Shown piece by piece: positions 17,953 through 53,596 of a stretch of DNA of 64,000 bases (position 1 is the stretch's first letter; each line of letters opens with the position of its first letter). The stretch lies in contig CM055611.1 of assembly GCA_029379385.1 (NCBI GenBank), forward strand, positions 4,960,001 through 5,024,000, in the 5' to 3' direction. Source of the DNA: Quillaja saponaria. Taxonomy: Eukaryota > Streptophyta > Magnoliopsida > Fabales > Quillajaceae. The notes below the pieces were generated by a model. It had not been told where the DNA came from and searched no databases. It saw only the letters and a list, made by a program, of their open reading frames with translations. The position numbers and the translations under genes are program-made.

Positions 17953-18238
17953 TTAGTGACGATCTCCCCCTGGTTTTTCTTCTGGAGGATCCACGTCTAT
18001 ATTTAACATTCTCCTTCTTCCTAGACAAAGTTAAGTTAAACAAACTAAATTAGAGATAGAGAAGACAGAGACAGAGATAGAGAGACAGAGAGAGAGACTT
18101 ACCAGTTTGTTGAACTTTGATTAAATCATTTGCAAAGGGTGTTGAAGTTGCAGTTATTGCAAAATTTGATGAGAACAATAGAAGCATAAACAGTGGAAGT
18201 AAGACAATTACAGAAAAAACAGACTTCTTGTTGTCCAT
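17953..18238 (-). CDS. Secreted peptide precursor, array member A
   Basis: Exon 1 (18103-18238) and exon 2 (17953-18020) join in phase 1 (ACTG|GTAAGT, TTGTCTAG acceptor) to a 67-residue precursor. Residues 1-30 are a signal peptide: MDNKK, a strongly hydrophobic stretch (VIVLLPLFMLLLF), then AITATST. A short linker (PFANDLIKVQQTG) ends exon 1. Exon 2 gives RRRML followed by NIDVDPPEEKPGGDRH and a stop. The basic RRML resembles the RxxL site cleaved by the subtilase SBT6.1 in some plant prohormones. The C-terminal I-D-V-x-P-P...G-G-D-R-H is shared with the other array members. The layout (signal peptide, variable middle, conserved C-terminal peptide) is that of plant peptide hormones, and I recognise no named family. 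No cysteines are present, so it is not a defensin-like peptide. Function is inferred only from this architecture. Confidence 0.75.
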
Positions 18239-18269
18239 TTATGTCTCTATGCATGACAGAAATGATCTA

Positions 18270-18302
18270 TCTAATTTGACATACATATTTATATATATAG
18301 TT
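18270..18302 (-). promoter_or_regulatory. TATA-like element of member A
   Basis: On the gene strand ACTATATATATAAATATG lies about 45-65 bp ahead of the start codon. The words GCAACTATATATA or ACTATATATA occur at the same place in the other members, consistent with a core promoter and a short 5' leader. Confidence 0.5.
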
Positions 18303-18394
18303 TCAGTAGTTTTGGTTTCTTTGAGATTGTTTCTGTAATGACCAAGTAATTTAGCAAATATTGTTCAACTTCAAGAAACTTTGATTTACATGAA

Positions 18395-18419
18395 GTCAAA
18401 TACGCGTAGTCCTACTTTG
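18395..18419 (-). promoter_or_regulatory. Conserved upstream module of member A (CGCG box plus W-box core)
   Basis: About 160-180 bp upstream of the start codon. On the gene strand it reads AAGTAGGACTACGCGTATTTGACTT, with ACGCGT and a TTGACT W-box. The same block recurs at the corresponding place in members B, C, D, G and H. Confidence 0.5.
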
Positions 18420-19452
18420 AAAATTCAGCACCTTTTAAAAGTATTTAGTTGAAGAGAAAAATTTTTTCTGGGACATTTGATCTGTGTATTTTTTTTTTTT
18501 TTTTAATTTTTTCCAAGTGTTTGAGGCTCTGGTTAAGTATCATTTTCAGGTTGGTTCAAACGAATCACATGATGGTAACAACATTAGTATAATATATATA
18601 GTAACAATTAGTATTAATTGTTTTAATAGTATTTCATGATCACTATATTATCAATATAATAATAAAATTACTATAGTGTATAAGGAAAAAAAGAAAAGAA
18701 AAAGATTGTCTTTTTCAATATATTTTTATTTTTATTTAGACTTGCCCAATTTTTGCATAATATGATTAATCCACTTTTATAGTTCGGTCTAAAATAGAAC
18801 TAACAAACTTATGAGAATTTAACTTTTGGAGGATTCAAACAAATGAAGGGAGTAAATCTTTCTGACTTTATGTCTTATTTGATTAACAACTTTTATGAAT
18901 ATGTAGAATGAAACAAAAAGAAATAAACGATCTAGTCATTATAGAATATTGTAATAAATTGGACTTGATAATATCTTTCTTTCACTTGTTTAGATTGGTG
19001 AATAAAGGAAAGTACTCTTTTTCATTGCATTGCAATAAATAACGTTATTAACAACTTATTTGCAATAACATTTTAGATGATAATCATTATTTGCGACCAG
19101 AAAATTGCTCTTGTTGATAATCTAACACTGACATATCCTATTGTTGATGATATTATCTAGATGTTGATAATGATAAAGATTTTGAGCAATTTTTCACGAA
19201 CTTTATTGCGTCTGCAACTGCCGTCAAAGATAGTGTTGATAATTTTATTTTTTTTAAATTATTTCGGGCCAATGTAAGCTCACCTTTTTTATTATATGCA
19301 TCTGCTTTTGCAGTCTCATATAGTATTAATAATTTTATTATAAGCTTCCACTTTTTTGCAGTTGCATATATTATAAACAACGACCGGATGCGCTGTCATG
19401 GACAATTTTTTTTCGAATTTGAGACCTATAGCTGGGCCATCATCATCCCCTC
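18420..19452. other. No gene seen; upstream region of member A
   Basis: Non-coding, A/T-rich sequence with diverged copies at about 24640-25315 and 26880-27720 (shared words TTTTCAGGTTGG, ACTAGTATTTCATGATCAC-like runs, ATTAACAACTTTTATGAATATG). It is part of the unit duplicated with the peptide genes. Confidence 0.5.
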
Positions 19453-22400
19453 TGTTAAGAAATTGATTATGATTGATTAAATATTACAATGACATCATCA
19501 ATTACTTTCAATTAAGATAATTATATTTATTATTATTATTATAATTAATAGAATTAAGTCTAATTATGAGTACAATCGATCATAGATAAAATTTGCCACG
19601 ACACAACCAAGGCCATGACTCGCAAAGGGAAACTTGACAAGCACTAAGACCTGTCTAAATCCCAACTAGCCTCTAAACAAAATATCTAACTACATTCAAA
19701 GGCAAATAAGATACAACTTTCAATTTAATTCATGTTACAACAAGTCCAAATGCACTACTGAACTAATTAGTTGTTTATACAAGTCATAAAAATTTCAAAA
19801 TACAAAATAAAGTGGACACGGTTAGATCAAGCCGTGCCTACCAAATCCAAAATATTGTAGCTTCCTCCAAGCTATAGGAATTGGTCTCGAGCTAATCAAC
19901 AATCTAAAAAAAATAATTAACCACAATAATGAGTCATAGACCCAGTGAGCAAACAACATGCACTACAACGAAAGTGGGACAAGCATAAAGAACGAACTTT
20001 TATGAGGGGTAAAACAATTTAAAGAAATGAATATGAAATACTAACATGATGCTAATATAATTTTGAAGAAAATATTCATAAAATGTTTTAAGATAAAAGA
20101 AATTAGTTTTGTTTCATCAAAAGTCTAGCCATATGAGTATATGAATAACATAATAATTTGGAATGAATAGTCATCTTCCAATTTAGAGAAAAATTATAGC
20201 ATAGAGAAAAATGGAGGATTCCAAGGTAGATTGTTATATCGAATCAATAGGTCTAAACCCAAAGGTCAGCATCAGCCTTGCTGACTAGGCTTTCAAATTC
20301 GAGCAATTCTATATGGCCTAAACATCCAATCCATGTGTTTGGCCTAACACGGGGCTAGCGACGCCCTTGCTAGCTGGGTTGAACCAAGGTGCATCAAGGC
20401 TAACTCACTGCTATTAGCTATGGTATTCCAACAAGGTTTCCTCTAAATATATATATATATATAACATAACTAATAAAAAAGTTTCAACATCCTTAACATT
20501 TACCAACAATACCAATTCTCTACATTTATATAAAATCAAACATTTCCGCATACAATTTCTCAATAAACATGTTATGACTCATATGGTCTCAACAAAACAA
20601 ATTTCCTTCATTTACCATAAATCACAAAACCAACTCATATTTTCATAACATTCTTTAAACAAAAATTAAGTAAATCAAAAGACTTGTCCCACGAGTACCT
20701 AAGCTCTACATCATAGGAGATAAGATAAGTTAGTATACATATATATTTATATATACATAGTTAAAGATAAAATCTCAATACTTAATTAATCAAGATTTGA
20801 TAAGAACTTATAAAAAAAGAAGTATAACTTTTCTATGAAATATAAGAGTGCATGGGGGATATTAGTAAAATTTAAAAGTGCTATAGTGAGCATTATCTAC
20901 TTACAAATCATGGTAAACCAAATAATTCCAAACCAACGATCGCATGGTTCCAAGAGGAGTCTCCAAAGAACCTAAAATGATAACATCACCACAATATTCA
21001 AATAATGATAAAGATTTGAAATAGAGTTAACAAACTTGTGTATAAAGGCACTTCTAACCAATGCTTAGTTCTAGAATTCCTACCTTAGGTGAGTACCAAC
21101 TAGTTAACCAACCAATCTTTCATTCCAAGAGACTTAAGAATTTCTACTACTATTCTAGTGAGCCCAAATGAAAGACACTAATTTATCTAAGTTGAAACCA
21201 ACGTGTAAAAAGTACTCAAGTTTCCCAAAATTATAAAAATAAGAGGTCTTGTTCTTACATTACAACTCAAATTCTAAAATATAATCAATAAAGCTAAACT
21301 AGCAAAACTATTAATCATAATATTTAGAAATAGTAGGATCTACTCATCTTAATGAAATAGTTTTAGAGTCAAAAGTAGATTCAAATAAACTTTTAAAGTG
21401 TTATAAAAACTAAATCTCTAAATTAATTTTCAAGATAAACTTAGAAACTAACATGAAAACTTTTAAAAAATGAATATAATCATTAGAATGTAGGAAAAAG
21501 AAATATACAACAAAATAGGAGAATACCCACTTACCTAAGTGAGATTTAGAGTAGAAAAAAGACCCAAAATCACCAAATCTAAGAGGTTGAAATTACTAAT
21601 TTCATGGGCCGAAATTTGAAAATAAATTTTTGCTTCCTTTGGGTAGATAAACAAAAGAAATGTGGTAGGAAGGAGTAGCAAAATGAAGGAGGTTGCTAGT
21701 TTGGAAGTGGAGGAGCAAGGAATTATGGAAAGGACAAGAATGGAGATTTGGTTCTCCTATCTCCTAGAGGCTGCGGAAACAAGGAAGAAGAGCCTTAGGC
21801 TCACGTGATGGGGTTGGGGAAAAATATAAGGGAGGGTAAAATGACCAAAGTGCCCTCCCTTGAGTTTTTTTTAAAATTTTTAATCCATGTATGTAAGGGT
21901 CGTTACAAAATTATAGAAAAGCTTATGTCTTAATTTTATCATTAGTCAACTATAATTTTCTTTGTAGTGTCTATAAATTATATACTCTACTATTGTAAAA
22001 GATGAATGAGTCAGCTTTATATATAGAGGAATAATTCAATTTTACTCTTCTCCTGCAGAGTAGGCTGAGGTCTGAATCACGTATATCTTATGCCTCTCTC
22101 ATTTACTTTCATTTGACTCGTTTGCCTCAAAATTTTTTCATGGTATCAAAGCCTTAAAAGCTCCAACGAGCAAATTGATCTTGATAGCTGCAATAAGATG
22201 ACTTTTACTATCAAAAACTCTCATGCCGCGATACTACCTTTGGAGTATTTCAACCGATATTCTCATGCACCTTGTAGTGTGGTAAGAATCACGTGAAAAA
22301 AATGTTCAAGTTTTTCATAATGCTAGACACAAAAAGAGTGCAGTAAGATGTTGAAACATTTACGTCAATGAAAGCTTTTTATCACGACATGACAACTTAT

Positions 22401-22558
22401 GATTCATTTAAAGAGAAGACAAAAGATCAAGACGAGAAACATTCGTCATTATTGATCTAAAATGAATATTCTTAAAAGAACATTCATCTTGCGGGGAGTG
22501 TTAAGAAATTGATTATGATTGATTGCAATTAATTGTAATATTACAATCACATTATTAG
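19453..22558 (+). mobile_element. Decayed Copia-type LTR element with a nested insertion in its left LTR
   Basis: TGTTAAGAAATTGATTATGA occurs at 19453 and again at 22499. The second is immediately preceded by a purine run GCGGGGAG (22491-22498), typical of the end of a Copia interior. TGGTATCAAAGCC at 22141 is a primer-binding site, so a left LTR should end just before it. The interior (22141-22498) is only about 360 bp and has no coding domain. The 2.7 kb between the first TGTTAAG and the primer site is far too long for the LTR otherwise implied and contains a different repeat (19560-21905). I interpret this as a left LTR split by a nested insertion. The right LTR is recognisable for only about 60 bp. 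Confidence 0.45.
19560..21905 (-). repeat. LTR-like sequence of a Gypsy-type family, nested
   Basis: Read on the minus strand the block begins TGTAACGACCCTTACA, a start common for long plant Gypsy LTRs. It also contains the palindromic word GTCAGCATCAGCCTTGCTGAC near 20262-20284, found in related form at 28860 and 31553. There is no coding sequence. It lies inside a smaller Copia LTR, so it arrived later. Ends are approximate. Confidence 0.4.
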
Positions 22559-23109
22559 TTTGATATTTTATATATGTTTACAAGTAGAATTGATTATGTT
22601 TAAAAATTGATATTGGGTTAAAACTAGAGGAAAGATCTATTTTGATATAATTGAGGGGAGATTAGAATACTTTATTCTTAATGAAAAGTATGGTGGTTTT
22701 ATTTGATTGAAATTTTATTAATTGTGAGTGAATGATATTTTTGTTGAGATTTTGCAACAGTTTGAATGAAATTATATGAATTCGACTTTAAAAACAAGTT
22801 GAGTATGTTTGAAATAATTGGTAGATGTAAATATTCTAATGGTTTAAAGTTATAAATTATAACATTTAAATCAATTACACATAGTAAAATATTTTATAAG
22901 ATGGAAAGAGTATTACACAAAATCGTGTTCGGCTCTACCATTAGAGATTGATTTTCACTTTCTTGGGTATGTATTTGGAGCAAAGAATGTCAATGTGGGT
23001 TAATCATTCATGCTAGATTGTCCTATTATTTGTGCACACAAGACCGAGGACATGCTTCATAAGAGATAAAAGATAATGCAAACAAGTCTCTCTAGGAGGC
23101 AAAATCTGA

Positions 23110-23790
23110 CTTAAACTAAATTTATTTTGCCATTTTTTCTTTGCTTCTACGTACCTTTTTGTGTCCATCTGCGATCTGATCCGAACTTATAGACTATAAA
23201 GATCACGATTTGATTCGAACAAAAAAATGATATTTGAATCGACTAGACATATAAAAAATCTGACTCAATTCGATAATCAAATTGCCATCCCTACCGGGCA
23301 TCTGTTTACTTGGTATGAAAGAAAAATGAGGCTCTTTCAAAGTTGAAAGTTAGACTTCTGAATTCATGCATGAAAAATGAGGAAACTGATCCGGAAGTAA
23401 TGGGTCCAAAAGGAAAAGGAAAAGTCAAAGTGTCATCTAAAATTTCTTTATTCGTTCGTTCTGCCAACATTTCTTTTCTTACTCATACACAATTTTGTCA
23501 AATCACAAAGATTCCCCATGTAAAAGTGAGCTGTTGTCCTTTCACCACCAAGTCAAATTTAGTTCTCTCTTCACATTCTTTTATAGAAGTCGCAAGTTAG
23601 CAAGTACAAGTCTTTCCTTTGAATTCATCAAATTTTAGAGATACAAAATCCTGAATCATGGAAAATGCAATTTGCACTTAACTTTTGTTTAGGAACAAAT
23701 TAATTATGATAGCAAAAAATTTGGGGAGAAACAAAAATGAGAGGAAGATAATAAGATGAGATTTTAACTTTCTCTCAATTTGTTTTGAAA
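23110..23790. repeat. Duplicated block B1, paralogous to 16340-17130
   Basis: See the paired block. Order and spacing relative to the downstream peptide gene match (block, about 0.4-0.8 kb, then exon 2 of members B and A). This shows that members A and B came from duplication of a unit of 2 kb or more. Confidence 0.6.
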
Positions 23791-24164: not shown

Positions 24165-24450
24165 TTAACGATCTCCACCCGGTTTGTTCTTTGGAGGACG
24201 CACATCTACACTCAACATTCTCCTCTTTCCTAGACAAAGTTAAACAAACTAAATTAGAGATAGAGAAGACACATAGGGAGAGTTAGATAGAAAGAGAGAG
24301 AGAGTTACCAGTTTGTTGAACTTTGCTTAATTCATTTGCAAAGGGTGTTGGTGTTGCAGTTGCAGATATTGAAAAATTGGATGAGAACAATAAAAACAGA
24401 AACAATGGAAGTAAGACAACTACAGGAAAAACAGACTTCTTGTTGTCCAT
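24165..24450 (-). CDS. Secreted peptide precursor, array member B
   Basis: Exon 1 (24309-24450) and exon 2 (24165-24229) give 68 residues. The signal peptide is MDNKKSVFPV, then VVLLPLFLFLLF, then SISATAT. The linker (PTPFANELSKVQQT) is one residue pair longer than in member A. Exon 2 encodes GKRRML followed by SVDVRPPKNKPGGDR and TAA. Compared with its relatives the final His is missing, because the stop comes directly after the DR codons (CGT TAA instead of CGT CAC TAA). The RRML segment again fits an RxxL-type processing site. The intron is 79 bp, phase 1, with a GTAACT donor. Everything else is intact, and the coding parts agree with member A better than the surrounding spacer does. Confidence 0.75.
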
Positions 24451-25319
24451 TTATCTCTCTAGTCTCTATGCATAAGAGAAATGATCTATCTAATTTGATG
24501 GTATACACACACATATATATAGTTGCAGTAGTTGTGGTTTCTTAGAAAATATTGCTTCTGTAATGACCAAGTAATTAAGCAAATAGTGTTCAACTGCTCA
24601 AGAAACTTTGATGGACATGAAGTCAATACGCGTAGTCCTACTTCGAAAATTCAGCACCTTTAAAAATATTTAGTTGATGAGAAAATTTGTTCTGGTCCAT
24701 TTGATCAATGTTCTTTTTCCAAGTTTTTGAGGTTGTGGTTATGTATCATTTTCAGGTTGGCACAAACTATCACATGATTTTAACAACATTATTATAATAT
24801 AGAAACAATTAGTATATATAAATAATTGTTTTGCTAGCTATAGTATTTCATGATCACTATGTTATCAATATATAATAATAAAGTTACTTGTGTACTGTAA
24901 GAAAAGTGTATAAAAAAGAAAGAAAGATTGTAAGTAATTAATTTCAATTTGTATTAATATTTGTTGACATAACTATGGTGCATAAAAAGAAATTGGATTG
25001 TCTTTTTCAATTTTCTTAATTAGGCTTGGCCACCGCTTCTATAATTCGGTCAAAAATAAGATTAACAATTAAAACTTACTAGAATTTTGCTTCTCACTGA
25101 ATCCTTGGAGGTTTCAAACAAAGCAAGTTAGGGAGTAAATTTTTGAAACTACCAAGTCAATCTCTTGAGTCCGTTTTTCTAACTTTATTTCACTTTATTT
25201 CTTATTCGATTAACAACTTTTGTGTAATGAAACAAAAATAAATAAACCATCTAGTCATTATAGAATATTGGAATAATGGGACTAAATAATATCTTTCTTT
25301 TGCTTGTTTAGATTATTGT
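24451..25319. other. Promoter and spacer of member B; no other gene
   Basis: A TATA-like run is at about 24508-24520 and the conserved module at 24622. The rest is non-coding and similar to the spacers beyond members A and C. Confidence 0.45.
24622..24643 (-). promoter_or_regulatory. Conserved upstream module of member B
   Basis: GTCAATACGCGTAGTCCTAC on the plus strand. On the gene strand it holds ACGCGT followed by TTGAC, about 172 bp upstream of the start codon. Confidence 0.5.
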
Positions 25320-26050: not shown

Positions 26051-26422
26051 TAATTGAGTAACTCAACCTTGCACAACAGTAATTTTTGTAGAAACAATAT
26101 TAGTTCATAGGGGTTGGATGGACCACTAGAATAAACACTGTCAGTGTCAGATGAGTTGAGGAAGAGATTTAAGATTTTCATTCTTTTTTCCTTTGCTAAT
26201 ACAAGATTTGTGTTTTTTTTAAATAGAAACGAAGTGGAAGTAAGATAATTAAATGAAAAAGAGACTTTTCTTAATTTCAATGGCAAGAGATCGATCACTC
26301 AAATTGTTTTTCAGATACAACATAGGCATAAGAAATTTTAATTATCAACTTCTCTTATTGGAGATTGTTCTTGTACCATTGTGTTTATTGGTCTGCAATA
26401 ATTCTAATAACTTATTTGATCA

Positions 26423-26711
26423 TTAGTGACGATCTCCGCCGCGTTTGTCTTTTGGAGGATGTACGTCTATACTCCTTCCTAGCCTTCTCTTCTTTTCTAG
26501 ACAAAATTAAACAACTTAGAATCAATAAACAGAGAGATAAAGAAGAAGAAGAGAGAGAGAGAGAGTGAGACTTACCATTTTGTGGGACTTTGTTTACTTC
26601 ATTGGCAATGGGTGTAGCAGTTGCTGATATTTCAAAATTAGTTGAGAACAAGAAACACAGAAACAATGGAAGTAAGATAATAATAGGAAAAAGAGACTTC
26701 TTGTTGTCCAT
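26423..26711 (-). CDS. Secreted peptide precursor, array member C
   Basis: Exon 1 (26576-26711) and exon 2 (26423-26496) encode 69 residues. The signal peptide is MDNKKSLFPI, then IILLPLFLCFLF, then STNFEISATAT. The linker is PIANEVNKVPQN. The intron is 79 bp, phase 1 (AATG|GTAAGT donor, TTGTCTAG acceptor). Exon 2 reads EKKRRLGR followed by SIDVHPPKDKRGGDRH and TAA. This is the fullest form of the conserved C-terminus and is nearly identical to member D apart from D's 11-bp insertion. A longer open frame reads through the intron and gives a different Arg/Ser-rich tail. I reject it because the splice sites are conserved across the array and only the spliced frame gives the shared ending. Function is unknown; a processed extracellular signalling peptide is inferred. 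Confidence 0.8.
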
Positions 26712-26849
26712 TTATGTGTATCTCTCTTTGTATATATGAAAGAAATGATCTATTTAATTTTATGGTATATATATAGTTGCAGTAGTTTTGGTTTGTTAGA
26801 GACTCTTTCTGTAATGTCCAACTGCTTAAGAAACTTTGATGGACATGAA

Positions 26850-26871
26850 GTCAATACGCGTAGTCCTACTT
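26850..26871 (-). promoter_or_regulatory. Conserved upstream module of member C
   Basis: GTCAATACGCGTAGTCCTAC on the plus strand, 139 bp upstream of the start. The gene strand carries ACGCGT plus TTGACT. Confidence 0.5.
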
Positions 26872-27719: not shown

Positions 27720-29830
27720 AACACCAAAGATAGGAGGCTGTGACTAGCATGAGAACTAAATTAGGGCCTACTATAGCTCTCACGAACTCACAATATGACA
27801 TTTGTCTAATAAGTGATCTTAAATACTCGAATTATCAATAAACTCGTTGTATTTTAAAGAGATTTATTTGTTATACCTACATTTGATTAAAAGACTACTA
27901 TTTAACCTAGTTCATTATATTCCATTTCAGTATCAACTTAGCATACTAAATTCATTCATAACGTGATTACAATGGCTTGTCCAGTTTGTAACGGCATCAA
28001 TCCATTTATACATTCTATAGGTTCACAAAATAACTCAACTTCTAACCATAAAGCCTTTAATCATAACTTTACTAAACATATTTAACAATAAATGTAATTC
28101 GTACAAGGAACATAAGGAAAAGATCAACCTATACACCACAAAGAGTCCTTACCAAAACCAACACCAAAGCATTTATGAAAATGATTCCAAAGCAAGTCCT
28201 TCTCTAAAACAAAATTCATCAAAGAATTCATGCCTAGCAGATTGTTTAATCATGAAACATCACATTTTCTCATAAAAGGAAAAACCAAACCAAAAGTAGT
28301 TTCCATGTATAACCACAATAGCTGCCAAGATAAGAATCGAAAGGTATTTAAGCACCTCACCAGTTTTATTTATTTTTAATTTTTATAAATTAAATTTATA
28401 GTTTTTCAACAAAAATCACTTTTGTCATTATTCTCAAAATTCATAATATTTCTTTAACTACAAATAAAACTATCAATGGATATTCCAACATTCCACCTCA
28501 AAAAATTGGATTACTCAAGCAAAATATATGTTCAAACCAAATGCATTTGACACTTCTTATAATGAGAAAATAATATATCATAAATTGAACAATCTAAGTT
28601 AAAAACTTTTAAATACAAAAACAATAAAAATTTAACATAATGATAAAACAAAGTTTCAAGTATGAAAATAATTTTCTAACGATTATGAAGGAAACATGGA
28701 ACTAAAGCCATATTTAACACATTACTTGAATGAATCTTTTATTCAACATGATATTAATAGTATTTTCTAAAACATATTTGAAAAGTAAAATACATTGTTA
28801 GAGTTTGAGGACTCTAAGGTAGAATGACATATAACGAATCAATGAGTACAATAACCAAAGGTCAACATTAGTCCTGCTGACTAGGCATGCAAATTTGCAT
28901 CAATTCAAATGTATTCAACGAATCCAATCCACGTGTTTGGCCTAACATGGAGCTAACATCACCCCTGCTAGATAGGGTTGAATCAAGGTGCACCAAGGCT
29001 AACAATACTGCTGTTAGCTACGGTATTTTAACAAGGTTTCATCCGATATCAAATTCTACCAAAACAAAATTATATCTTCCCATTATTTTACAAAAACCAA
29101 AACTCATTCATTCTCAAACCATTATTTTCCCTCAACTCTGGTGTCAAATTCTTTTGTCAATGATTTTTGAATTATTCAAAGTGAACAATTTTGAAAAGCG
29201 AATACACAATTAGTTATAGCTAGTAGTATGTTTTATTTTTGTTTATTTTTCTGAAATATCATTGATATTTCTCTATATTTCTACAGACTCAGACATGGTG
29301 AAAATATTACAAATTGTCTATATCTTGTACTTATAATAGATGATGAGAAAATATTCGCCAAGTTTGACAAAAAGATTAAGCTATATAGAATGGGAGTGTG
29401 GCTTTTCTAGTGAATGTGTTAAACAACATACTTAGTGCTTTCATTTGGGTTTCTTTGTTTTATAATAAATGTTCCAATGGAGTTGAAATAATTTATCATT
29501 TTGCAGAAACAATATTATTTCACAGTTGTTGGATGGACCACCAGGTTAAACAATGTTAGTGTCAGATGAATTTAGGAAGAGATTTAAGATTTTTTTTTTT
29601 TTTTTTTCTCCTTCCTAATGCAAAATTTGTGTTTTTTTTTAAAAAAAAAAAAATAGAGACGTAGTGGAAGTAAGATAATTACAAGAATAAGAGACTTTGT
29701 TGAATTTTAACAGAAAGAGATAGATCACTCAAATTGTTTTTCAGATACAACATAGGCTTAAGAAATTTTAATTATCAACTTCTCTTATTTCCATAATGTT
29801 CTTGTACCATTGTGTTTATTTTATTTAAAT
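27720..29830. repeat. LTR-like repeat plus 3' flank of a lost peptide gene; paralogous to 30660-32470
   Basis: From about 27990 (TAACGGCATCAATCC) to 29830 this block aligns with 30670-32470, including the LTR-like words near 28860-29040 (GCTGACTAGGC, GTGTTTGGCCTAACA, GCTGTTAGCTACGG). The last part (29505-29830) equals the 3' flank of members C and D. It stops just before the point where exon 2 would begin. A peptide gene next to it has therefore been lost, and the sequence then runs into a CACTA fragment. Confidence 0.6.
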
Positions 29831-30659: not shown

Positions 30660-32470
30660 CTCTAAAATTGTAACGACATCAATCCATTTGTACATTCTAG
30701 AGGTTTACAAAATAACTCAACTTCTTACCATATGCCTTTATCATAACTACTACCAAACATATTCAATAATAAATGTAATTTCGACAAGAAACGACATAAG
30801 GAAAAAAGATCAACCTATAAACCACTATGAGTCCTTACCAAACAAACTCAAAAGCCTTCATGAAAATTATTCCAAAGCATGTCCTTCTCTAAAACAAAAT
30901 CCATCAAAGAATTCATGACTAACATATTGTTTAATCATGAAACATATCCTCATAAAAGGAAAAACCAAACCAAAAGTAGTTTCCATGTACAACTACCACC
31001 ACAATAGCTACAAAGCTAAGCATTGGAAGATACTCAAGCACCTCACCAGTTTCTTTTTATAATTAAATTACAATTTTTCAATGAAAGTAATTTTTTCATT
31101 ATTCTCAAAATTCATAATATTTCTTTAACTACAAATAAAACCATCAATGGATATTCCAACCGAACAATACTTGCTTATAATATCCACCTCCAAAAATTGG
31201 ATTACTCTTGAACAAAATATATGTTCGAACCAGATACATTTGACAATTCTTATAATGAGAAAATAATATATCATAAATTGAACAAGCTAAGTTAAAATCT
31301 TTCAAATACAAAAATGATAAAAATCTAACATAATGATATAACAAAGTTTCGAGTACGAAAATAATTTTATAACGATTATGAAGGAAACATGGAACTAAAG
31401 CCATATTTAAAACATCTTACTTGAATGAATCTTTTATTCAACTTGATATTAAGAGTATTTTCTAAAACATATTTGAGAACTAATATACTTTGTTAGAGTT
31501 TGAGGACTCCAAGGCAGAATCACATAATGAATCAATGAGTACAATACCTAAAAGTTAGCATCAGTCCTGTTGACTATGCATCTAAATATGCATCAATTCA
31601 AATGCATTCAACGAATCCAATCCACATGCTTGGCCTAGCACAGGGCTAACATCACCGTTGATAAATAGGGTTGAATTAAGGTGCACCACGGCTAACAACA
31701 CCGCTGTTAGCTATGGACTAATGGTATTCTAGCAAAGTTTCATCCGATAGCAAATTCTATCAAAACAAAATTATATCTTCCCATCATTTTACAAAAACCA
31801 AAACTCAATCATTCTCAAACCACTATTTTCCCTCTACTCCAGTGTCAAATTCTTTTGACAATGATTTTTGAATTATTCAAAGTGAACAATCTAGAAAAGT
31901 GGATGCACAATTCGGTATAGCTTATAGTATGTTTAATTTTTTTATTATTTGGTTGAAATATCAGTGATATTTCCCTATACTTCTACGGGCTCAAACATGG
32001 GGAAAATATTATACATTGTCTATGTCTTGTACTTAATAGATCATAAGAAAATGTTGTCGAAATTTAGCAAAGCTTGAAGAAAAGATTAAGCTACATGGAA
32101 TGCGTGTGTCACTTTTCTGGTAGGTTTCTTTGTTTTTTAATAAATGTATCCAGTGGAGTTAAAATAATTTATAATTTTTGTAGAAACAATATTAGTTCAT
32201 AGGAGTTGGATGAACCACCGGGATGAACACTGTCAGTTTCAGATGAATTCAGGAAGAGATTTAAGATTTTCATTCTTTTTTCCTTTGCTAATACAAGGTT
32301 TGTGTTTTTTTAAATAGAGACGAATTGGAAGTAAGATAATTACATGAAAAAGAGACTTTGCTTAATTTCAATAGCAAGAGATCGATCGCTTAAATTGTTT
32401 TTCAGATACAACATAGGCATAAGAAATTTTAATTATCAACTTCTCTTATTGGAGAATGTTCTTGTACCAT
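30660..32470. repeat. LTR-like repeat plus 3' flank of member D; paralogous to 27990-29830
   Basis: See the paired block. Divergence is modest and spread evenly. Together they show duplication of a unit of at least 1.8 kb that already contained an LTR-like insertion. Confidence 0.6.
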
Positions 32471-32494
32471 TGTGTTTATTGCTCTGTAATAATT

Positions 32495-32808
32495 CTAAAA
32501 ACTTATTTGATCATTAGTGACGATCTCCGCCGTCACTCCGCCGCGTTTGTCTTTTGGAGGATGTACGTCTATACTCCTTCCTAGCTTTCTCTTCTTTTCT
32601 AGACAAAATTAAACAACTTAGAATCAATAAACAGAGAGATAAAGAAGAAGAGAGAGAGAGAGTGAGACTTACCATTTTGTGGGACTTTGTTTACTTCATT
32701 GGCAATGGGTGTAGCAGTTGCTGATATTTCAAAATTAGTTGAGAACAAGAAACACAGGAACAATGGAAGTAAGATAATAATAGGAAAAAGAGACTTCTTG
32801 TTGTCCAT
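32495..32808 (-). CDS. Secreted peptide precursor, array member D, with altered C-terminus
   Basis: Exon 1 (32673-32808) is identical in translation to member C. Exon 2 (32495-32598) is also the same up to SIDVHPPKDKRGG. There an 11-bp duplication (plus strand GTCACTCCGCC, near 32531-32541) shifts the frame, so the conserved final DRH is replaced by VTAEIVTNDQISF before a TAG. The predicted product has 79 residues. The signal peptide, KKRKL basic site and IDVHPP core are kept. If the mature peptide needs its last residues, as in most plant peptide hormones, this copy is inactive; otherwise it has a new, longer tail. Promoter and splice sites look intact. Confidence 0.65.
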
Positions 32809-32946
32809 TTATGTGTATCTCTCTTTGTATATATGAAAGAAATGATCTATTTAATTTTATGGTATATATATAGTTGCACTAGTTTTGGTTTGTTAGAGAC
32901 TCTTTCTGTAATGTCCAACTGCTTAAGAAACTTTGATGGACATGAA

Positions 32947-32969
32947 GTCGATACGCGTAGTCCTACTTT
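32947..32969 (-). promoter_or_regulatory. Conserved upstream module of member D, W-box core changed
   Basis: GTCGATACGCGTAGTCCTAC on the plus strand, 139 bp upstream of the start. ACGCGT is kept, but TTGAC has become TCGAC. Confidence 0.45.
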
Positions 32970-37674: not shown

Positions 37675-38228
37675 TTATCCCATTTCAGTCTGCCCCTTCT
37701 TTTCTGCACAAAATCAAACAGCATATAAATGATCATTCATAAATAATAGAATTCCATTATTAGTTTCTTAAGTCATTAATTTGTTGTCTAAGCTATACTT
37801 AGGTGTGTTCTTTGGATTAGCAGAGGTGGTTGGGGTTGCTTGGTTTTTGATATATAATATGGCAGTACTTCTAGTCTTAAGCCAGTGGGATCAATTGACC
37901 CTAACCTTGAAACTTAATTATTCTGTGAATATATATATTAATTTTCGAGACTTGAGTTCTTCTTAATTCGTCGCTGCTTATTTATTGCTATTAATATTCA
38001 GAAGGAAAACTTTGGTAACTGAACATCTTAATTAAACAAATGACAGAGAGACACAATAAAGATAAAGACGATCAAATAATTAGAGGGTGACTTACTAGTT
38101 TGTGGGACTTTGTTGAATTCATGAGCAAAGGGTGTTGCAGTTGCAGATATTGGAGATGATGATGAGAACAATAAAAACATAAATAGTGGAAGTAAGATAA
38201 TTAAATGAAAAAGAGACTTGTTGTCCAT
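37675..38228 (-). pseudogene. Secreted peptide precursor, array member E, frameshifted
   Basis: Exon 1 (38096-38228) is intact: MDNKSLFHLI, LLPLFMFLLF, SPISATATPFAHEFNKVPQT. The donor is GTAAGT and the intron is long (392 bp). With the acceptor TTGTGCAG, exon 2 begins at 37703, but compared with member F it carries one extra G at a GGG run near 37680. It reaches a stop (37675-37677) after only KKGQTEMG, giving 53 residues. In the alternate frame the conserved tail is still legible (KIGVRPTPEKYGGDR, then LVIQEQF), so the damage is recent or the tail is read from another splice form. Two alternative AG sites tested within the exon also lead to stops. I treat it as a pseudogene. Confidence 0.65.
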
Positions 38229-42700: not shown

Positions 42701-42705
42701 GTATC

Positions 42706-44050: not shown

Positions 44051-44063
44051 ACTTCTTCCATCA

Positions 44064-44410
44064 TTAGGGCACAGGATGATCACGTCCCGATTTCATTCTT
44101 GGAGGACGTACATCTATTTTCACTTGAAACTTATTCAATTCCGGCTTACCCTTTTTTCCTAAAAAAAATTAGAAAAATCAAACAGCATAGAAATCATGAT
44201 TCATATATAACTAGTAATTGAATATCTTAAACAAATTTAGTGATAGAGAGACACAAATAGAAAGGGAGACATACCAATTTTTGGGACCTTGTTTAAGTCA
44301 TGAGCAAAGGGCGTCGCCGTTGCAGATATTGCAGATGATGATGAGAATAATAAAAACAGAATCAATGGAAGTAAGATAATTCCAGGAAAAAGAGACTTGT
44401 GTTTGTCCAT
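44064..44410 (-). CDS. Secreted peptide precursor, array member F, divergent tail
   Basis: Exon 1 (44275-44410) encodes MDKHKSLFPG, IILLPLILFLLF, SSAISATAT and PFAHDLNKVPKI. Exon 2 (44064-44158) encodes GKKGKPELNKFQVK followed by IDVRPPRMKSGRDHPVP and TAA, for 76 residues. The start was chosen by homology at MDK; an in-frame ATG nine bases upstream (MRR) is possible. The linker before the conserved block is about seven residues longer than in A-D and has the K-F-Q-V-K segment shared with member E. The ending GRDHPVP replaces GGDRH. The intron is 116 bp, phase 1 (ATTG|GTATGT). Members E and F form a subgroup. An intact frame in such a short, diverged gene suggests that the protein has been kept. 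Confidence 0.65.
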
Positions 44411-46190: not shown

Positions 46191-46341
46191 GGCTACATTT
46201 GAATCAAATATACAAAATAACATTTATGAAGATCGATCCACTTTGTTATTCTATTCTGTATACGGTCACTAGCTGTGGTATTCAACTTAGAATCTGTATT
46301 TAATAAGAAATACAGATTTTTATTGATGACTTCTTTTATCA

Positions 46342-46636
46342 TTAGCGACGATCGCCCCCGGATGGTACTGGTGGAGGATTTACGTCTATAATCGTATCTA
46401 ACCTTCTCTTCTTTTCTGGAAAAATTCAAACTGTGAAAGTTATTCATTTTATATAAAGAGAAACACAGAAATAGACATAGGACAGAGAAAGAGAGAGCCT
46501 AACCGGTTTGTAGAACACTATTTAATTCATGGGATAGGGGTCTTGCAGTTGCCGATATTGCAAATAATGATGAGAACAATAAAAACAGAAGCAATGGAAG
46601 TAAGATAATATGAAGAAGAAACTTGCTCTTGTCCAT
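46342..46636 (-). CDS. Secreted peptide precursor, array member G
   Basis: Exon 1 (46504-46636) and exon 2 (46342-46415) encode 68 residues. The signal peptide is MDKSKFLLHI, ILLPLLLFLLF, LFAISATA. The linker is RPLSHELNSVLQT. The intron is 88 bp, phase 1, with donor GTTAGG and acceptor TTTTCCAG. Exon 2 reads EKKRRLDT followed by IIDVNPPPVPSGGDRR and TAA. G and H share the -SGGDRR end (Arg for His) and Pro-rich centre, and form a subgroup. All family landmarks are present: signal peptide, KKRR basic site, IDV-x-PP and GGDR. Confidence 0.75.
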
Positions 46637-46639
46637 TTC

Positions 46640-47300
46640 TCTCTCTAATTGATCAAAATATATCTATTTTAATTTTCTATTTGATAGTACATATATATAG
46701 CACTTGCAGTGACTTTGATTTCTGGCGACCCTTTCTGTATGACCAAGAACTTAACCAACTACTGTTCAACTGCTCAAGCAACTAGTCAATACACGTAATC
46801 CAACTTGGAAAAATTCTTCGCACCATTCAAAAATGTTTAGGTTATGTTCAGATTGGTACTGTAGTTTTCTTGATGAGAAAATTAATATACAACAAAAAAT
46901 GGTTTTACTAGTATTTGATGACTACGTTATCAACATTTAATAAGATTTATTGAAATTGTAAACTCAAATCCTTGTAGTAGAGTGGAGCAGTTGTCAAGTG
47001 AGTCACTCGAATGGATGTAGGGAAACTTTGCCTGCTTGTGGTGTAGGACAAGAATGAGGTTAAAACAATATATATATATATATATATATTTGGATAATTT
47101 TGATGTAAGTAGTAGTTTGATTTTATTTTATCATATTCCCTTACGTTCCAAACAGGAAAAGTAATGTTTAACTATATTATTACAATAGCTTTTATATAAA
47201 TAAATAGACGATTTAGTGTCTATACAACTGATTGTTAACGGTCTGTTTTCAAAATCTAGCCCTCGATTTTCTAACTGATTGTAAAGATTTAGTGTCACTG
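46640..47300. repeat. Upstream block of member G, paralogous to 53600-54250
   Basis: The two blocks align from the promoters to the word TGTAAAG(A/G)TTTAGTGTC (47281-47297 and 54235-54251), including the AAATCCTTGTAGT...GTCAAGTGA stretch and TTACGTTC..A.AGGAAAAGTA. They define the right border of the G/H duplication unit. A (TA)n run at 47070-47090 is unique to this copy. Confidence 0.75.
46785..46806 (-). promoter_or_regulatory. Conserved upstream module of member G
   Basis: GTCAATACACGTAATCCAAC on the plus strand, 149 bp upstream of the start. TTGACT is kept; ACGCGT is changed to ACGTGT. Confidence 0.45.
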
Positions 47301-47430
47301 ATAATCTAACCTTCTCTTCTTTTTTGAACAAATTCAAACTGCAAAAGTTATTAATTATATATGGTTAGCATAAATCAAGGGATAACAATTGACCCATGAT
47401 TTATGCTCTCAATCATCTCCATTATATCAA

Positions 47431-47633
47431 TAAATTAGGCCTGTAATTATACCTAATTGTCTATTACATATTTGGGTGATACTTAATCTAAGTTTACTAT
47501 GTTAGGTAGACATTGTATTTGAATGCTACTTAGTCTAGGTTCACTATTTTAGGTAGACATCTCTAGCTTATAAATAGAGACTCTCTCTGTACATTTGATA
47601 TTAACTCAATATACAATTCTCATTCAATTTAAC
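47431..47633 (+). repeat. Left LTR of the Copia element
   Basis: Ends just before the primer-binding site at 47635. It contains TATAAATAGAGACTCTCTCT, a probable promoter TATA box. Confidence 0.7.
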
Positions 47634-48125
47634 TTGGTATCAGAGCTAGGCCCACGACTGATAAGTCTTTCTTTTACACCCACACTCAATGGTTGATCGG
47701 CCGAAGACTGATGGGTTCTACCTCACTATTTCGAATCTCCAAGTTCCACGTGAGAGGGTGTCAATATGTGAACTTTCACATTGCTAAGGCTAGAGGGCTT
47801 CATAATTCTTATAAGTAAATATGCCTCTCCTCTTGTCACTAATTGATTTGTTTTTAAGAGTGAGACTCCAACTTGATATGAGAGCCTTTTTAAGGCTTTT
47901 TATTTTATATATATATATATATATATATATTAATTTTGCAAGTGGAAGGTTGGCTTATCTTATTTTTTAGCCTTCAGACCTCCATTTGTCTCGTCTTCTT
48001 CACAAATGGGTCATTTAAAATCTCTAGATAAAAATGGCATTGCCCATTTCAGCCTTCAATCATCGATAAGTTATCACATTTTCTAGCATCCAACTACTCT
48101 TACTACAGACAACACTACATCTGCT

Positions 48126-48671
48126 ATGTCTTCTTTTTTCACCACTATGCAACTTACTCTAGAAGAACTAGCAATTATTTCTCATTATAGACAATCTCAG
48201 TATGGTAACAATAGTGATAATATTGATTCTTCATTTCCTAGCTTTTGTGCATATTCTGTAACTTCAGATACAACACCATGGTTACTTGATTCTGCATGCT
48301 GCAATCATATGACTTCTAATTCTAGCTTATTTTCTCACACTGCACCAAGTAATTCTATTCCTCCTATACACACTGCTGATGGTACTCCATTATACACCAC
48401 ACATATAGGAGATATTTTCACATCTACACTTTCTATTTCTAACACTTTTCTCATTCCATCATTATCTCACAATCTTATATCCCTTGGTCAAATTGTTAAT
48501 CATGACTGTAAAATTCATCTTAACTCTTCTAGTTGCACTATTCAGGACGAAAGGGTGGGAAAAGTGATTAGGATAGGTCGTAAGATAGATAGTCTTTTTG
48601 TTATAAATCGTCTTCATCTTCCATCCACTACAATTACTACTTCATCTGTCTCCTTAAATAAAGCTCTTTAA
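48126..48671 (+). pseudogene. Copia protease / GAG-pre-integrase segment
   Basis: This is the longest open piece of the element, 181 codons. WLLDSACCNHMTSNSSLF corresponds to the aspartic-protease motif W.lDSGAs.Hmt (the catalytic D is present; the GA after DS is altered). It is followed by the IHTADGTPL and IGDIFTSTLSISNTFLIPSL strands and HNLISLGQIV. The zinc-binding pre-integrase region after it is broken. Confidence 0.75.
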
Positions 48672-49889
48672 CTTTGGCACTCACTCCTTAGTCATCCATC
48701 ATTGTCTAAGCTTCATCCTCTCTTTTCAATTGATCAGTTAAGGTTAATGTCTATTTCTGATTTTCATTATCTACCATTCAAATAAGTAAATAGTCCAAAT
48801 TACCTTTTAATTTCAGTGAGTCAAGGTCTAAAGACATTTTTGATTTAGTACATTTTAATATATAAGGACTTTTTCTAATTCTTATTCAGGGAGGTCTCGT
48901 TATTTTGTCATTTTGTGGACGATTTTTCTCATTTTACATAGATTTAACTTTTGAAAAACATATCAGAACTTTTAATTGTTTATGCAATTTTTTGTTAAAA
49001 TGGTTCATACACAGTATTCTCACACTATTAAAATTTTTCAATCTGATAATGCAAAAGAATACACATCCACACAATTTTTACAATTGCTAGCACACGAGGG
49101 AACCATTGCTTAAACTTCTTATGCTAGTACCTTTGAGCAAAATGGTAAGGGCTGAACGTAAACATAGACACATTGTTAAAACCACTAATGCCTTACTACA
49201 CTTTTTTTTTTCCTGAGTCATTATAGGGTGAAGCTGCTCTCACTGCAGTCTACACTATAAATTGTACTCCTTCAATTGTTTTACAAAATAAGTCTCCTTA
49301 TGAGGTTTTACATGGTAATAGACGTCCAAATTATAGTCTCTTACGTGTGTTTGGTTTTGTCTGTTTCGTTCAACTCTAATCACATGAACGATATAAACTT
49401 AAACCTCGCTCTTGCATGTGTTACTTCCTAGAGTATGGAATAACTTTAAAAGGGTATCGATGTTATGATCCTATTTAAAAATGCTTACGAGTCTCTCGTC
49501 ATGTTGTGTTTTAGGAAGATACTTTATTCACTCAGATATCCTCATTTGACAATCCAAAATCAAAACCTCCTCTAGAATTGCCAATTCATTCTCCAGTCGA
49601 TCTATTTCTTGATACTCCAGTTTTTGTTCCAAATTAAGTCGCAGCCCCAGATCTAGATTCAGTTTCAGCTTTAGCTTCATTCCAACCCAACCAACTCTTC
49701 TTGCCCTTGCTCAAAGTTTGCTTTCCTTGTCTAAACATCCTCTACCATCTGCTCCACAATCTATTTATAAGGTACGCCCTTCTTCTGGTAGGATTTGTAA
49801 ACCCAATACTCTTTTACAAGATTATCATTGTTATTTAACGCTTGCAACTCTACATGAAGCTACCACTTTTAAAGAAGCTTCCCATGACC

Positions 49890-50999
49890 GTTTTTAGCAA
49901 AAAGCTATGAAGGAAGAATTTGATGCTATCACTAAAACTAACACTTGGAATTTAGTTGATCTACCTCTAAGAAAATTTATTGTAGGTTGTAAGTAGCTGT
50001 ACAAGATCAAAAGTCTTGCAGATGGCAGTATTAAACGATACAAGGAACGACTGGTTGCAAAAGGATACACACAGGAGTATAGCATTGATTATTAGGATAC
50101 ATCAGCTCATATTGCTCTTCTCACTTCATTTTGAGCTTTTATTGCCATTGCTTTTACTTTTAGATGGTCACTCTTACAAATGAATATTAAAAATGCATTT
50201 CTTAAAATGGAGAGCTCACTGAGGAGGTGTACATAAACTTCCACATGGATTTTCACATTCTCCAAGGTAGGTTTGTCACCTCTAGAAGGCACTATATGGT
50301 CTCAAACAGGCTCCTAAGGCTTGGTTTTCTAAATTCAGCTATATATTGGCACATCTTGGATTCTTCTCTAGTAACTATGATTCAGCCTTATTTCGCCGGC
50401 AAACTAATTCTAGTTTAATCCTGGTTTTACTGTATGTTGATGACATGATTATCACAGATAATGACAGTCTAAGCATTCTTGATCTTAAATTAGCTCTTTG
50501 TCAGCATTTTGAAATTAAGGATCTTAGCACACTCACTTATTTTTTTGGTCTTGAGGTTACTTCTAATTAGTTCGGTTATTATCTTACTCAAGCCAAATAT
50601 GTTTCTTACCTGATTTCCAAATCAAGCATATCTGATAATGACACTATAGAATCATACGTGGAGGAGAATTGAAAAAATAGGATGCTAACTAGGGAATCTC
50701 TTCCTAATCCTGCTCTTTATCTTCAGCTGCTTGGTAGCTTAATCTATCTTACAGTTACTAGACCAGACATTACTTATGCAGATTATCATGTCTGTCAGTT
50801 TATGTCTTCTCCTTCATCTGCACACTATGCAGCAGTAATTTGGATTTTAAGATATATGAAAGGAACTCTTTTTCAGGGCCTACATTATCTTTTTACATCT
50901 TCCCTCCAGCTCACTGCCTACTCTCATGTAGATTGGGCACGGGATCCTTCTGACAGACAGTCTATTACAAGTTTTTGCTTCTTTCTTGGTGATTCTTAG
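49890..50999 (+). pseudogene. Copia reverse transcriptase and RNase H relic
   Basis: Legible blocks: KAMKEEFDAITKTNTWNLVD, YKERLVAKGYTQEYSIDY, LLYVDDMIITDND (the YVDD catalytic motif), LGSLIYLTVTRPDITYADYH, SAVIWILRYMKGT-like text, and YSHVDWARDPSDRQSITSFC (RNase H start). Stops occur near 49996, 50093 and 50132, with more between 50570 and 50680. This is a dead pol gene. Confidence 0.8.
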
Positions 51000-51407
51000 A
51001 TCTTATGGCATAGTAAGAAATAACTAATTGTCACTTGTTCTACTACTAAATCTGAGTATCGAGCTTTTCCAAATACTACTACTAAGTTCATTTGACAACG
51101 ATGATTATTAGGGGACGATGTTATTTTTTCTGATCATACTTTGTTCTTCGCTACACTTATTTACTGTAATAGTCAAAGTGCTATTCAAGTTTCTCACAAT
51201 GATATTTTTCATGAATGAACAAACACATTGAAATTGATTATCATGTCATGTGCACTCATCTCACTCGTGACACTCTCCGTCTCATTCATGTTCCTTCCTC
51301 AGACCAGATTGCAGATATCTTCATGAAGTCATTCTCTATAAAAGACTTTCAGCATTTAGTTTTCTAACTCAATTTGGTCTCTTTTCAACTACCTTGACTT
51401 TAAGGGA

Positions 51408-51614
51408 TAAATTAGGCCTGTAATTATATGTAATTGTCTATTACATACATATTTGGATGATATTTAGTCTAGGTTCACTATGTTAGGTAGATATTGTATT
51501 TGGATGATATTTAGTCTAGGTTTATTATGTTAAGTAGACATCTCTAGCCTATAAATAGAGACTCTCTTTTGTATATTTGATATCAACTCAATAATAATTC
51601 TTATTTCGTTTAAC
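51408..51614 (+). repeat. Right LTR of the Copia element
   Basis: Matches the left LTR with scattered substitutions and a few small indels, so the insertion is not recent. Confidence 0.7.
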
Positions 51615-51665
51615 TTATATAAAGAGAAAGATAGAAATAGACATAGAAGATTCTTGTCCATTTCT

Positions 51666-53100
51666 CTCTCTAATTTATCAAAATATATCCATTTTTATTT
51701 TCTATTTGATAGTTCAGATATATAGTACTTGCAATGATTTTGCTTTCTTATAGACTCTTTTTGAATGTAAACTTAAGCAACGAGTCAATACATGTAAAAT
51801 ATTAACTATTAAAATTACTAAAAAGACCAGTTTAACAGATATTATAGTTCTATTTGTCTAAATAAAATAATGATTAAAATTTATTTAAGCTTCTATTATT
51901 TTTTATTTGAAAAAGCTTATTTTTGTAACTCAAGCTTCTAGGATTCTAAAAGTCCAAAAATATTTTTTCGTTAAGCTTAAAAAACAAAACCTCTACTACC
52001 AAACAACTTTGTAGAAAAGCTTAAACACAAAATCTATTTTAAAAGCTAAACTAAATAAGAGCATTATCTCTAATAAAAATAATGTTTAACAAAATAAATT
52101 AAATTTATTTGTGATATTTTAAAAATAAACAAAATCATAACATTATGAGACAAATAAGTTAACTTTACGAGGCAAATAAGTTAAAATTTTAGTATTTTCT
52201 CTTCAATGATTAGGCTTTAAATTAGAACAAATTTTTACCACTTTAACCCGTTAAAGAATAAATATTTAAAAAACTTAAATAAATTTATGATATATTAATT
52301 AATAAAAGAATAAAGACTTGTAGTAATAATAAAATGCTGCCATTCTTTCTTTTCATATTTTTCAACCAAAAAATGAAAAAAAAAATTATTTTCTTTAAAG
52401 AGTTTGAATTTATCTTTTAAATTCAGATATATTTAAAAAATGTTAAAGTTCATATCATGGAAAAATCTAACATTATTTTATTTAAAATAGTAACTTATAT
52501 ATATATAATTCTCCTTTTATTTTATTAATAAGAAAAAATTGAAGTTGCTATTAAGAAAATAATTTAAAAAATAAAGAATGATATAAACTGTAAATATTAG
52601 GACTCCTTTGAAAAGAAAAAATTAAAAGTAAGACATCTTGGTACTTTGGATATATAGATATGACTTTTTATTATTTTACTCAAATTATTTCTTTATACCA
52701 TTAGCTTTTCCAGCCATCATAAAGGAGTGTCAATTTTCCTAAATTTTAGATCTTAATGTTATTTCACCACATCTCAAGGGAGGGGAGTGTAATTTGCTCT
52801 ACATATTCATTTAGATAGTTGATGTAAATCTTATCATTTTTTTTTCTTAATCTAAAAATATATATCAACAAATCAAAATACTAATACTAATTCTATAAAA
52901 ACATATTACAACTCATACTCGAATGGTAATATTGATTTTTATTGTTAAGCTTAAAATATGTTAAATAAAAAAATAAAAAAAATTTAACTTAATTCCTTTA
53001 ACAAAATCTTATCACTAGCTGTGGTATTCAACTTAATTACAATCTGTATATTTAATAAATAAGAAGATACAAGGGTAAGGATATTCAACTAGCGATCTAT
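51666..53100. other. No gene seen
   Basis: Up to about 51800 the sequence is the upstream region of the split peptide gene (GAGTCAATACATGTAAAAT near 51783 recalls the conserved module). The rest is very A/T-rich with no coding frame. Confidence 0.5.
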
Positions 53101-53162
53101 TATTATTCTTGTATCACAAATTTCATTATTCAAGTGATTTTTACTGATGACTTCTTTGATCA

Positions 53163-53596
53163 TTAGCGACGATCGCCCCCGGATGGTTCTGGTTGAGGAT
53201 GTACGTCTATACTCGCCTTTAACATTCTCTTCTTTTCTGGACAAATTCAAACGATTTAAGAGTTATTCATTTTCATTATATATAGAGAGAGAAACATAGA
53301 AATAGACATAGAAGGGCACAGAAAGAGAGAGATCGACTAACCGGTACGTAGAACACTATTTAATTCATGGGAAAGGGGTCTTGCAGTTTCATTTTCATTA
53401 TATATATAGAGAGAAACATAGAAATAGACATAGAAGGGCACAGAAAGACAGAGATCGACTAACCAGTATGTAGAACACTATTTAATTCATGGGATAGGGA
53501 TCTTGCAGTTGCCGATATTGCAAATAATGATGAAAACAATAAAAACAGAAGCAATGGAAGTAAGATAATAGGAAGAAGAAACTTGTTCTTGTCCAT
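53163..53596 (-). CDS. Secreted peptide precursor, array member H
   Basis: Exon 1 (53464-53596) and exon 2 (53163-53236) encode 68 residues. The signal peptide is MDKNKFLLPI, ILLPLLLFLLF, LFAISATA; the linker is RSLSHELNSVLHT. Exon 2 reads EKKRMLKA followed by SIDVHPQPEPSGGDRR and TAA. The second proline of the PP pair is replaced (P-Q-P). The intron (227 bp) is longer than usual because it contains a 121-bp tandem duplication that copies the last ~45 bases of exon 1 with its donor site. That creates a second possible exon boundary; the outer copy was used here because it is continuous with the signal peptide. Other splice sites match member G. Confidence 0.72.
53266..53508. repeat. 121-bp tandem duplication spanning exon 1 end and intron of member H
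   Basis: Copy 1 (53266-53386) and copy 2 (53387-53508) each run from TTCATTTTCATTATATA through the donor (AACC(G/A)GTA) to GGG(A/T)..CTTGCAG. They differ at only a few bases, so the event is young. Confidence 0.85.

Follow-up and report, generated by a model that had tools for sequence, protein, structure and literature searches.

The 64,000-nt window of the Quillaja saponaria (Quillajaceae, Fabales) genome analysed here (C7:4960001-5024000) carries a tandem array of small genes that encode putative secreted-peptide precursors. Eight loci on the minus strand, referred to as g18, g24, g26, g32, g38, g44, g46 and g53, extend from the first ATG at position 53596 to the last stop codon at position 17953 (Table 1), as the initial annotation of this stretch had described. 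All eight consist of an exon 1 of 133-142 nt, a phase-1 intron of 74-392 nt with GT..AG borders and a short exon 2, and a ninth locus on another chromosome (C11) has the same two-exon, phase-1 structure. The splice sites of all models were set by hand; those of g24, g26, g46, g53 and the C11 gene yield NCBI proteins letter for letter. The complete C-terminal motif [IV]DVxP[PQ]...GGDR precedes the stop codon in five of the eight window genes (g18, g24, g26, g46 and g53), and the single design at first ascribed to every copy thus holds for exon 1, intron and short exon 2 but not for the full motif. Likewise, the family had been termed unrecognised and indeed has no family name, but five of the eight loci are already annotated with NCBI hypothetical proteins (O6P43_016915-016919), and five of the six database entries of the family carry the name 'Transmembrane protein'. 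We regard the array as largely real, with eight small related genes of which about five appear intact.

The remaining copies depart from this pattern. The exon 1 of g32 is identical to that of g26 at 135 of 136 bases, and 11 nt inserted into exon 2 of g32 remove GGDRH from its plain model. In the NCBI model of this gene (O6P43_016917), exon 2 is read in another frame, as though the acceptor lay 5 nt farther downstream, and the protein ends in GGDRH; we deduce this acceptor shift from a comparison of the NCBI protein with the DNA. In g38, IGVRPTPEKYGGDR is readable in another frame only, and its exon 2 has, by eye, one base more than that of the C11 gene. Precursors of 67-79 residues, the range given in the initial annotation, are encoded at seven of the eight loci, g38 giving 53 residues under the conserved acceptor. 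The C-terminal end of g44 is SGRDHPVP, and a longer KFQxKI type of exon 2 is common to the C11 gene, g44 and g38 (in g38 in another frame only). The intron of g53 contains a second, incomplete copy of the end of exon 1 (about 53390-53340).

Table 1. Features of the peptide-gene array in the window (window coordinates) and of the related C11 region
Feature	Position	Strand	Description
g18	17953..18238	-	Intact, 67 aa; exons 18238-18103, 18020-17953; core NIDVDPPEEKPGGDRH
g24	24165..24450	-	Intact, 68 aa; exons 24450-24309, 24229-24165; core SVDVRPPKNKPGGDR; O6P43_016915
g26	26423..26711	-	Intact, 69 aa; exons 26711-26576, 26496-26423; core SIDVHPPKDKRGGDRH; O6P43_016916
g32	32495..32808	-	Recent copy of g26; plain model 79 aa
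g38	37675..38228	-	Intact exon 1 (38228-38096), then a frameshift and a premature stop
g44	44064..44410	-	Open, 76 aa; exons 44410-44275, 44158-44064; core diverged, without GGDR: KIDVRPPRMKSGRDHPVP
g46	46342..46636	-	Intact, 68 aa; exons 46636-46504, 46415-46342; core IIDVNPPPVPSGGDRR; O6P43_016918
g53	53163..53596	-	Intact, 68 aa; exons 53596-53464, 53236-53163; core SIDVHPQPEPSGGDRR; O6P43_016919
C11 gene	C11:4856609-4856914		Ninth locus, intact; end KIGVRPPQERRGGN
Promoter block of g24	24620..24634	-	TACGCGTATTGACTT, CGCG box beside W-box
Block copy, g26	26848-26862
Block copy, g46	46783-46797
Block copy, g53	53746-53760
Block copy, g32	32945-32959		Degenerate
Block at g18	about 18393-18410		One extra T
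Exon-1-like remnant	29644..29706	-	Of a lost copy, inside 1.9-kb duplicate; weak tblastn
Exon-1-like remnant	26220..26270	-	Downstream of g26; weak tblastn
Exon-1-like remnant	32311-32358		Sister remnant, downstream of g32; weak tblastn
C11 kinase	C11:4847857-4851082		Frame of 948 codons 4848239-4851082; end exon 4847857-4848177; splice joins in frame (by eye)

A protein profile of the family (A1; 5.8 billion sequences, 5855 candidates scored) retrieved the C11 protein, which had not been part of the profile, with an E-value of 1.1e-20; the other five matches are window genes, i.e. self-matches, and no relative outside Quillaja was found among the candidates scored. A second profile that included the C11 gene (A3) likewise matched only Quillaja among the 7972 candidates sharing most words, and neither profile returned an annotated protein for g18, g38 or g44. 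A search with the post-signal consensus gave no match, known family members included. Since these protein searches require shared exact 5-residue words and the last of them missed known members, absence outside Quillaja is weakly shown; a restriction of the family to its lineage nonetheless fits the searches. Comparison with Pfam, NCBIfam and PDB sequences gave only weak unrelated matches (best E-values 0.006, 0.085 and 1.5, respectively), and we recognised no paper on this family among the open-licence PMC papers listed. We judge the family to be new, the kind to which it would belong, secreted peptide precursors, being already known.

That the family is real, as had been claimed at the outset, is borne out by the match to the C11 protein and by an excess of synonymous over nonsynonymous change in three sister pairs. 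Nei-Gojobori counts were made for the 21 pairs among seven open genes, leaving out g32 and g38. Pooled over these pairs, the ratio of nonsynonymous to synonymous differences per site (pN/pS) amounts to 0.66, and to 0.63 for exon 2 taken alone. In the sister pairs g18-g24, g46-g53 and g44-C11, of which the other pairs are not independent, the whole coding sequence shows 32.5 synonymous changes over 140.8 sites and 57.5 nonsynonymous changes over 471.2 sites (ratio 0.53, Fisher p 0.003), and exon 1 by itself gives a ratio of 0.42 (p 0.006). From these ratios by exon, the coding sequence is under purifying selection, exon 2 mildly so. A ratio near 1 over exon 2 in all pairs, which the initial annotation had named as the outcome that would tell against the family, is not what the counts give: 20 of the 21 pairs lie between 0.19 and 0.97 (four of them at 0.77-0.97) and one, with 8 nonsynonymous and 0 synonymous changes, is undefined. 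The closest pair, g46-g53, has 12 nonsynonymous and 2 synonymous changes, of which 8 and 0 lie in exon 2, and its two first exons agree at 127 of 133 bases.

Upstream of the genes lies a short block in which a CGCG box (CAMTA type) stands beside a W-box (WRKY type). With up to two mismatches, TACGCGTATTGACTT occurs at five places in the window, all upstream of family genes (mean of 0.03 in shuffles). The C11 gene keeps both the CGCG box (-160) and the W-box (-153), although the dS (synonymous divergence) between its coding sequence and those of the array genes is about 0.49-0.70 and the 450 bp upstream are mostly poorly aligned. A further upstream stretch, GCTTAATTGCTTGGTCATTA in C11, is kept in several genes. 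Within 300 bp upstream, a W-box is found in six of the nine genes and in 27% of 5000 random window segments, and a CGCG box in six of nine as against 4% of such segments. The two elements stand within 8 bp of each other in three of the eight window genes and in the C11 gene; degenerate elements are seen in g32 and g53 (W-box) and in g46 (CGCG box). Three of the five such composite sites in 264 kb of C7 belong to family genes, and the only one in 40 kb of C11 is that of the C11 peptide gene.

The precursors begin with a basic n-region, a proline-broken hydrophobic core of roughly 17-20 residues (by eye) and small A-x-A/S residues at the would-be cut, features typical of a cleaved signal peptide; signal peptides were assigned by eye from such features, without a predictor. 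After residue 32, none of the nine models has a cysteine or a tyrosine. A basic RxLx/RxxL site lies directly before the core in all five full-motif precursors and in g32. The signal-peptide-like start, the linker, the basic site, the short Pro/Gly C-terminal peptide and the lack of cysteine and tyrosine together fit a secreted peptide ligand. Five of the eight window genes, and the C11 gene with a variant ending, have the features of the general class of secreted, cysteine-poor precursors, the signal peptide being judged by eye.

Among known systems, the array most resembles the PROSCOOP genes, which are described in the cited part of PMC6382344 as encoding 72-117 aa in two or three exons and as forming a 37-kb tandem cluster with transposon remains. 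The Quillaja array likewise spans 36 kb with transposon remains, and its precursors share a size of about 70 residues, few exons, the lack of cysteine after the signal peptide and an RxLx/RxxL site before a Gly-rich C-terminal peptide, a likeness that is weak here given how common the site is in shuffles. In the material cited from PMC13157962, this site is reported for most PROSCOOPs, and PROSCOOP12 is cut at RRLM by SBT3.5. Unlike in SCOOPs, no SxS occurs in any C-terminal core of the nine models, the single S.S match lying in the linker of g53, and no SxT was seen in the cores by eye. PROSCOOPs are moreover reported only from Brassicales in the cited portion of PMC11331138, a study of 350 plant genomes. 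Membership in PROSCOOP was rejected: the architecture is very like, but the defining SxS motif is missing from the cores. By design, the array could nevertheless work like a PROSCOOP cluster.

The other families were compared by regular expressions on the post-signal parts of the nine models. The CEP, PIP, IDA, CLE and RGF precursors also combine a signal peptide, a linker and a short Pro/Gly-rich C-terminal peptide, which in several ends in or near His. None of the nine models contains the CLE motif VPxG.[ND]P, the RGF motif PPxHN or the PEP motif [SG]SGxx[GP]xx[NH]. The CEP/PIP motif GxGH / SPG[IV]GH, as given in the consulted part of PMC4526919, and the IDA/PIP core S[GAV]PS are absent after residue 32 in all nine models, and, unlike the IDA and PIP genes, described there as intronless, all nine have an intron. 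The lack of tyrosine after residue 32 in all nine sets them apart from the sulfated-tyrosine peptides PSK, PSY and RGF. The stress-induced CTNIP/SCREW peptides likewise come from short precursors with a signal peptide and a C-terminal active region, but CTNIPs have two required cysteines according to the cited text of PMC9191895. GmPep914 and GmPep890 of soybean, also of the Fabales, carry a short C-terminal Pro/Gly-Gly peptide (DHPRGGNY), and the C11 protein ends in RRGGN. PRGGNY is, however, found in none of the nine models, and this kinship was dropped because the motif differs and the soybean precursors, of 52 aa, are described in the parts cited of PMC4621407 and PMC6547358 as having no obvious signal peptide. 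On the features examined, the genes fit none of the named peptide families.

The C11 peptide gene has a leucine-rich repeat (LRR) receptor-kinase gene on the same strand, at a distance of about 5.5 kb. The best solved relatives of its ectodomain in the PDB are MIK2 entries (up to 730.6 bits), followed by FLS2 (590.6), a further likeness to the SCOOP/MIK2 system. Drawn from the PDB, which holds few LRR kinases, this ranking denotes kinship to MIK2, not orthology, and 'MIK2-related' is used here for closest solved relative only; in the strict sense, the cited portion of PMC11331138 reports no MIK2 homologues or paralogues outside Brassicales. In MIK2, the SxS of SCOOPs is bound by D246, N268, S292, H294 and H316, which were mapped with an offset of 42, derived by hand and confirmed for each of the five. 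Of these residues, one of five is kept in one alignment register (H, Y, H, H, Y) and none in another, extrapolated register (N, H, Y, R, S), the two registers arising because the C11 kinase has about one repeat fewer. Since the SCOOP-pocket residues are not kept, the C11 kinase appears an unlikely SCOOP receptor, a further difference from that system. A tblastn search with the C11 kinase as query found no such kinase in the 100 kb on each side of the C7 array. A precedent for the clustering of receptor and ligand comes from poplar and willow, as noted in the cited part of PMC13157962. Under a uniform model (352 Mb, 6 kb either side), the chance of such a neighbour would be about 1.4% per locus for any of about 400 LRR kinases. 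It would be about 0.2-0.7% per locus for an assumed 50-200 MIK2-related genes in the genome; gene clustering raises both figures, two loci were looked at, and the linkage was noticed after the fact. The linkage may thus be due to chance.

The array likely grew through local duplication, with transposon insertion and loss of copies. Self-comparison of the window reveals duplications of 26.1-26.9 against 32.2-33.0 kb (94.7%), of 46.5-47.3 against 53.4-54.3 kb (85%) and of 27986-29820 against 30668-32480 (1.9 kb, 82%). Where one transposon-split remnant had been counted before, without a statement of which was meant, three exon-1-like remnants are found (tblastn E-values 0.01-0.1; DNA likeness by eye). 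Near 16.7 kb and 23.4 kb the window repeats the upstream flank of the g38 type (70-72%), and tblastn of the window found no family exon at either place. Direct repeats of 211 bp (85.8%), 4 kb apart, enclose a Pol fragment (48087-48668; Pfam Pol_BBD) at 47430-51616, which is probably an old long terminal repeat retrotransposon inserted between g46 and g53. A separate direct repeat of 0.7 kb joins 61430-62137 and 63026-63743 (94% identical). The nearest ordinary gene to the array, among ten neighbouring frames scanned, is a NINJA-like gene at 2526-4438 on the minus strand (Tify-binding domain above the Pfam cut-off, EAR motif below it). P450 genes or fragments lie beside the array (several, C7 about 5034-5121 kb) and beside the C11 gene (one, C11:4869158-4869778), one call being confirmed by Pfam and the others resting on tblastn likeness. 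P450 is the clear shared neighbour of the two regions (64-69% over 195-206 aa at four places), and four other C11 loci have short, weaker C7 matches (36-57% over 28-93 aa). A shared ancestral segment or segmental duplication is possible.

From the gene structure, copy number, motif, promoter block and coding constraint described above, we infer the secretion, cleavage, perception and role of the peptide as follows. The genes probably form a lineage-specific family of secreted peptide ligands of the phytocytokine type, PROSCOOP-like in build. An intact gene would encode a precursor of about 68 residues. Its exon 1 would code for a signal peptide that is cleaved off, likely behind ATA/ATS around residue 32, and for a variable linker. 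From exon 2 would come the basic RxLx/RxxL site, at which a subtilase of the SBT6.1/S1P or SBT3 type could cut, and the C-terminal peptide [IV]DVxP[PQ]...GGDR[H/R], some 14-17 residues long and ending at or within one residue of the stop. Once in the apoplast, the peptide would be perceived by an LRR receptor kinase, and its role would probably lie in stress or immunity, as suggested by the W-box/CGCG block situated roughly between -140 and -185 relative to the ATG. Several observations weigh against this. Three of the eight copies are frameshifted (g32, g38) or diverged (g44). Constraint on exon 2 is weak in the three sister pairs (ratio 0.61, p 0.052), and in g46-g53 this exon has 8 nonsynonymous and no synonymous changes, which could be diversification on the peptide or relaxation. 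The RxLx/RxxL site is absent from g44, g38 and C11; when the stretch is shuffled in the five full-motif genes, the site turns up in 16-47% of trials, so that it is consistent with subtilase cutting but no proof of it. At the promoters, g38 lacks both elements, g44 lacks the CGCG box and has its W-box at another place, and two further composite sites lie elsewhere in the 264 kb of C7. The block copies of the array share descent and are therefore not independent, the C11 gene being the sole distant test. The initial proposal of a lineage-specific hormone or phytocytokine family is thus partly supported, by the architecture and by matches confined to Quillaja, and tempered by the mild exon-2 constraint and the two frameshifted copies.

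Tandem copies and the fast change of exon 2 in g46-g53 would also suit antimicrobial or wall-binding peptides that act directly and are not receptor ligands, and the post-signal parts are net basic (+1 to +7) in six of the seven intact members, g18 being neutral. However, the net charge of the core ranges from -3 to +3 among seven sequences, cysteine is lacking after residue 32, no amphipathic segment is apparent by eye, and the conserved feature is the short C-terminal Pro/Gly motif; a variable core charge with a kept Pro/Gly motif is more readily expected of a ligand than of a cationic antimicrobial, and we consider direct action unlikely. Similarly improbable, in our view, is a fading family of mostly non-functional local duplicates with one or two genes still working. 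The broken g32 and g38, the loss of GGDR in g44, the three remnants and the two gene-less repeats of the g38-type flank would accord with such decay, but five array copies and the C11 gene are intact, the three sister pairs show coding constraint, and the promoter block is kept between chromosomes. Small membrane-anchored proteins that retain the hydrophobic stretch seem very unlikely: the database names and the length of that stretch point this way, but the basic n-region, proline-broken core and A-x-A/S residues speak for cleavage.

The peptide ligands of plants easily escape detection, their precursors being short, interrupted by introns and quick to evolve. The putative ligand family described here offers a compact natural series from the order to which the legumes belong: five intact array copies, one distant paralogue, and further copies that are diverged or broken. 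The searches made showed no relative of it elsewhere. If its peptides are active, the origin of new ligand families could be tested on it. One specific first receptor candidate is the MIK2-related kinase near the C11 gene. It is conceivable, if rather doubtful, that Quillaja has its own SCOOP-like module, in which independent peptides are perceived by MIK2-related (LRR subfamily XIIb) receptors and one ligand gene lies beside its receptor on C11. We know of no ligand for a MIK2-related receptor outside Brassicales, and such a module, if true, would mean that these receptors have served repeatedly as a docking platform for phytocytokines that are lineage-specific and unrelated to one another.

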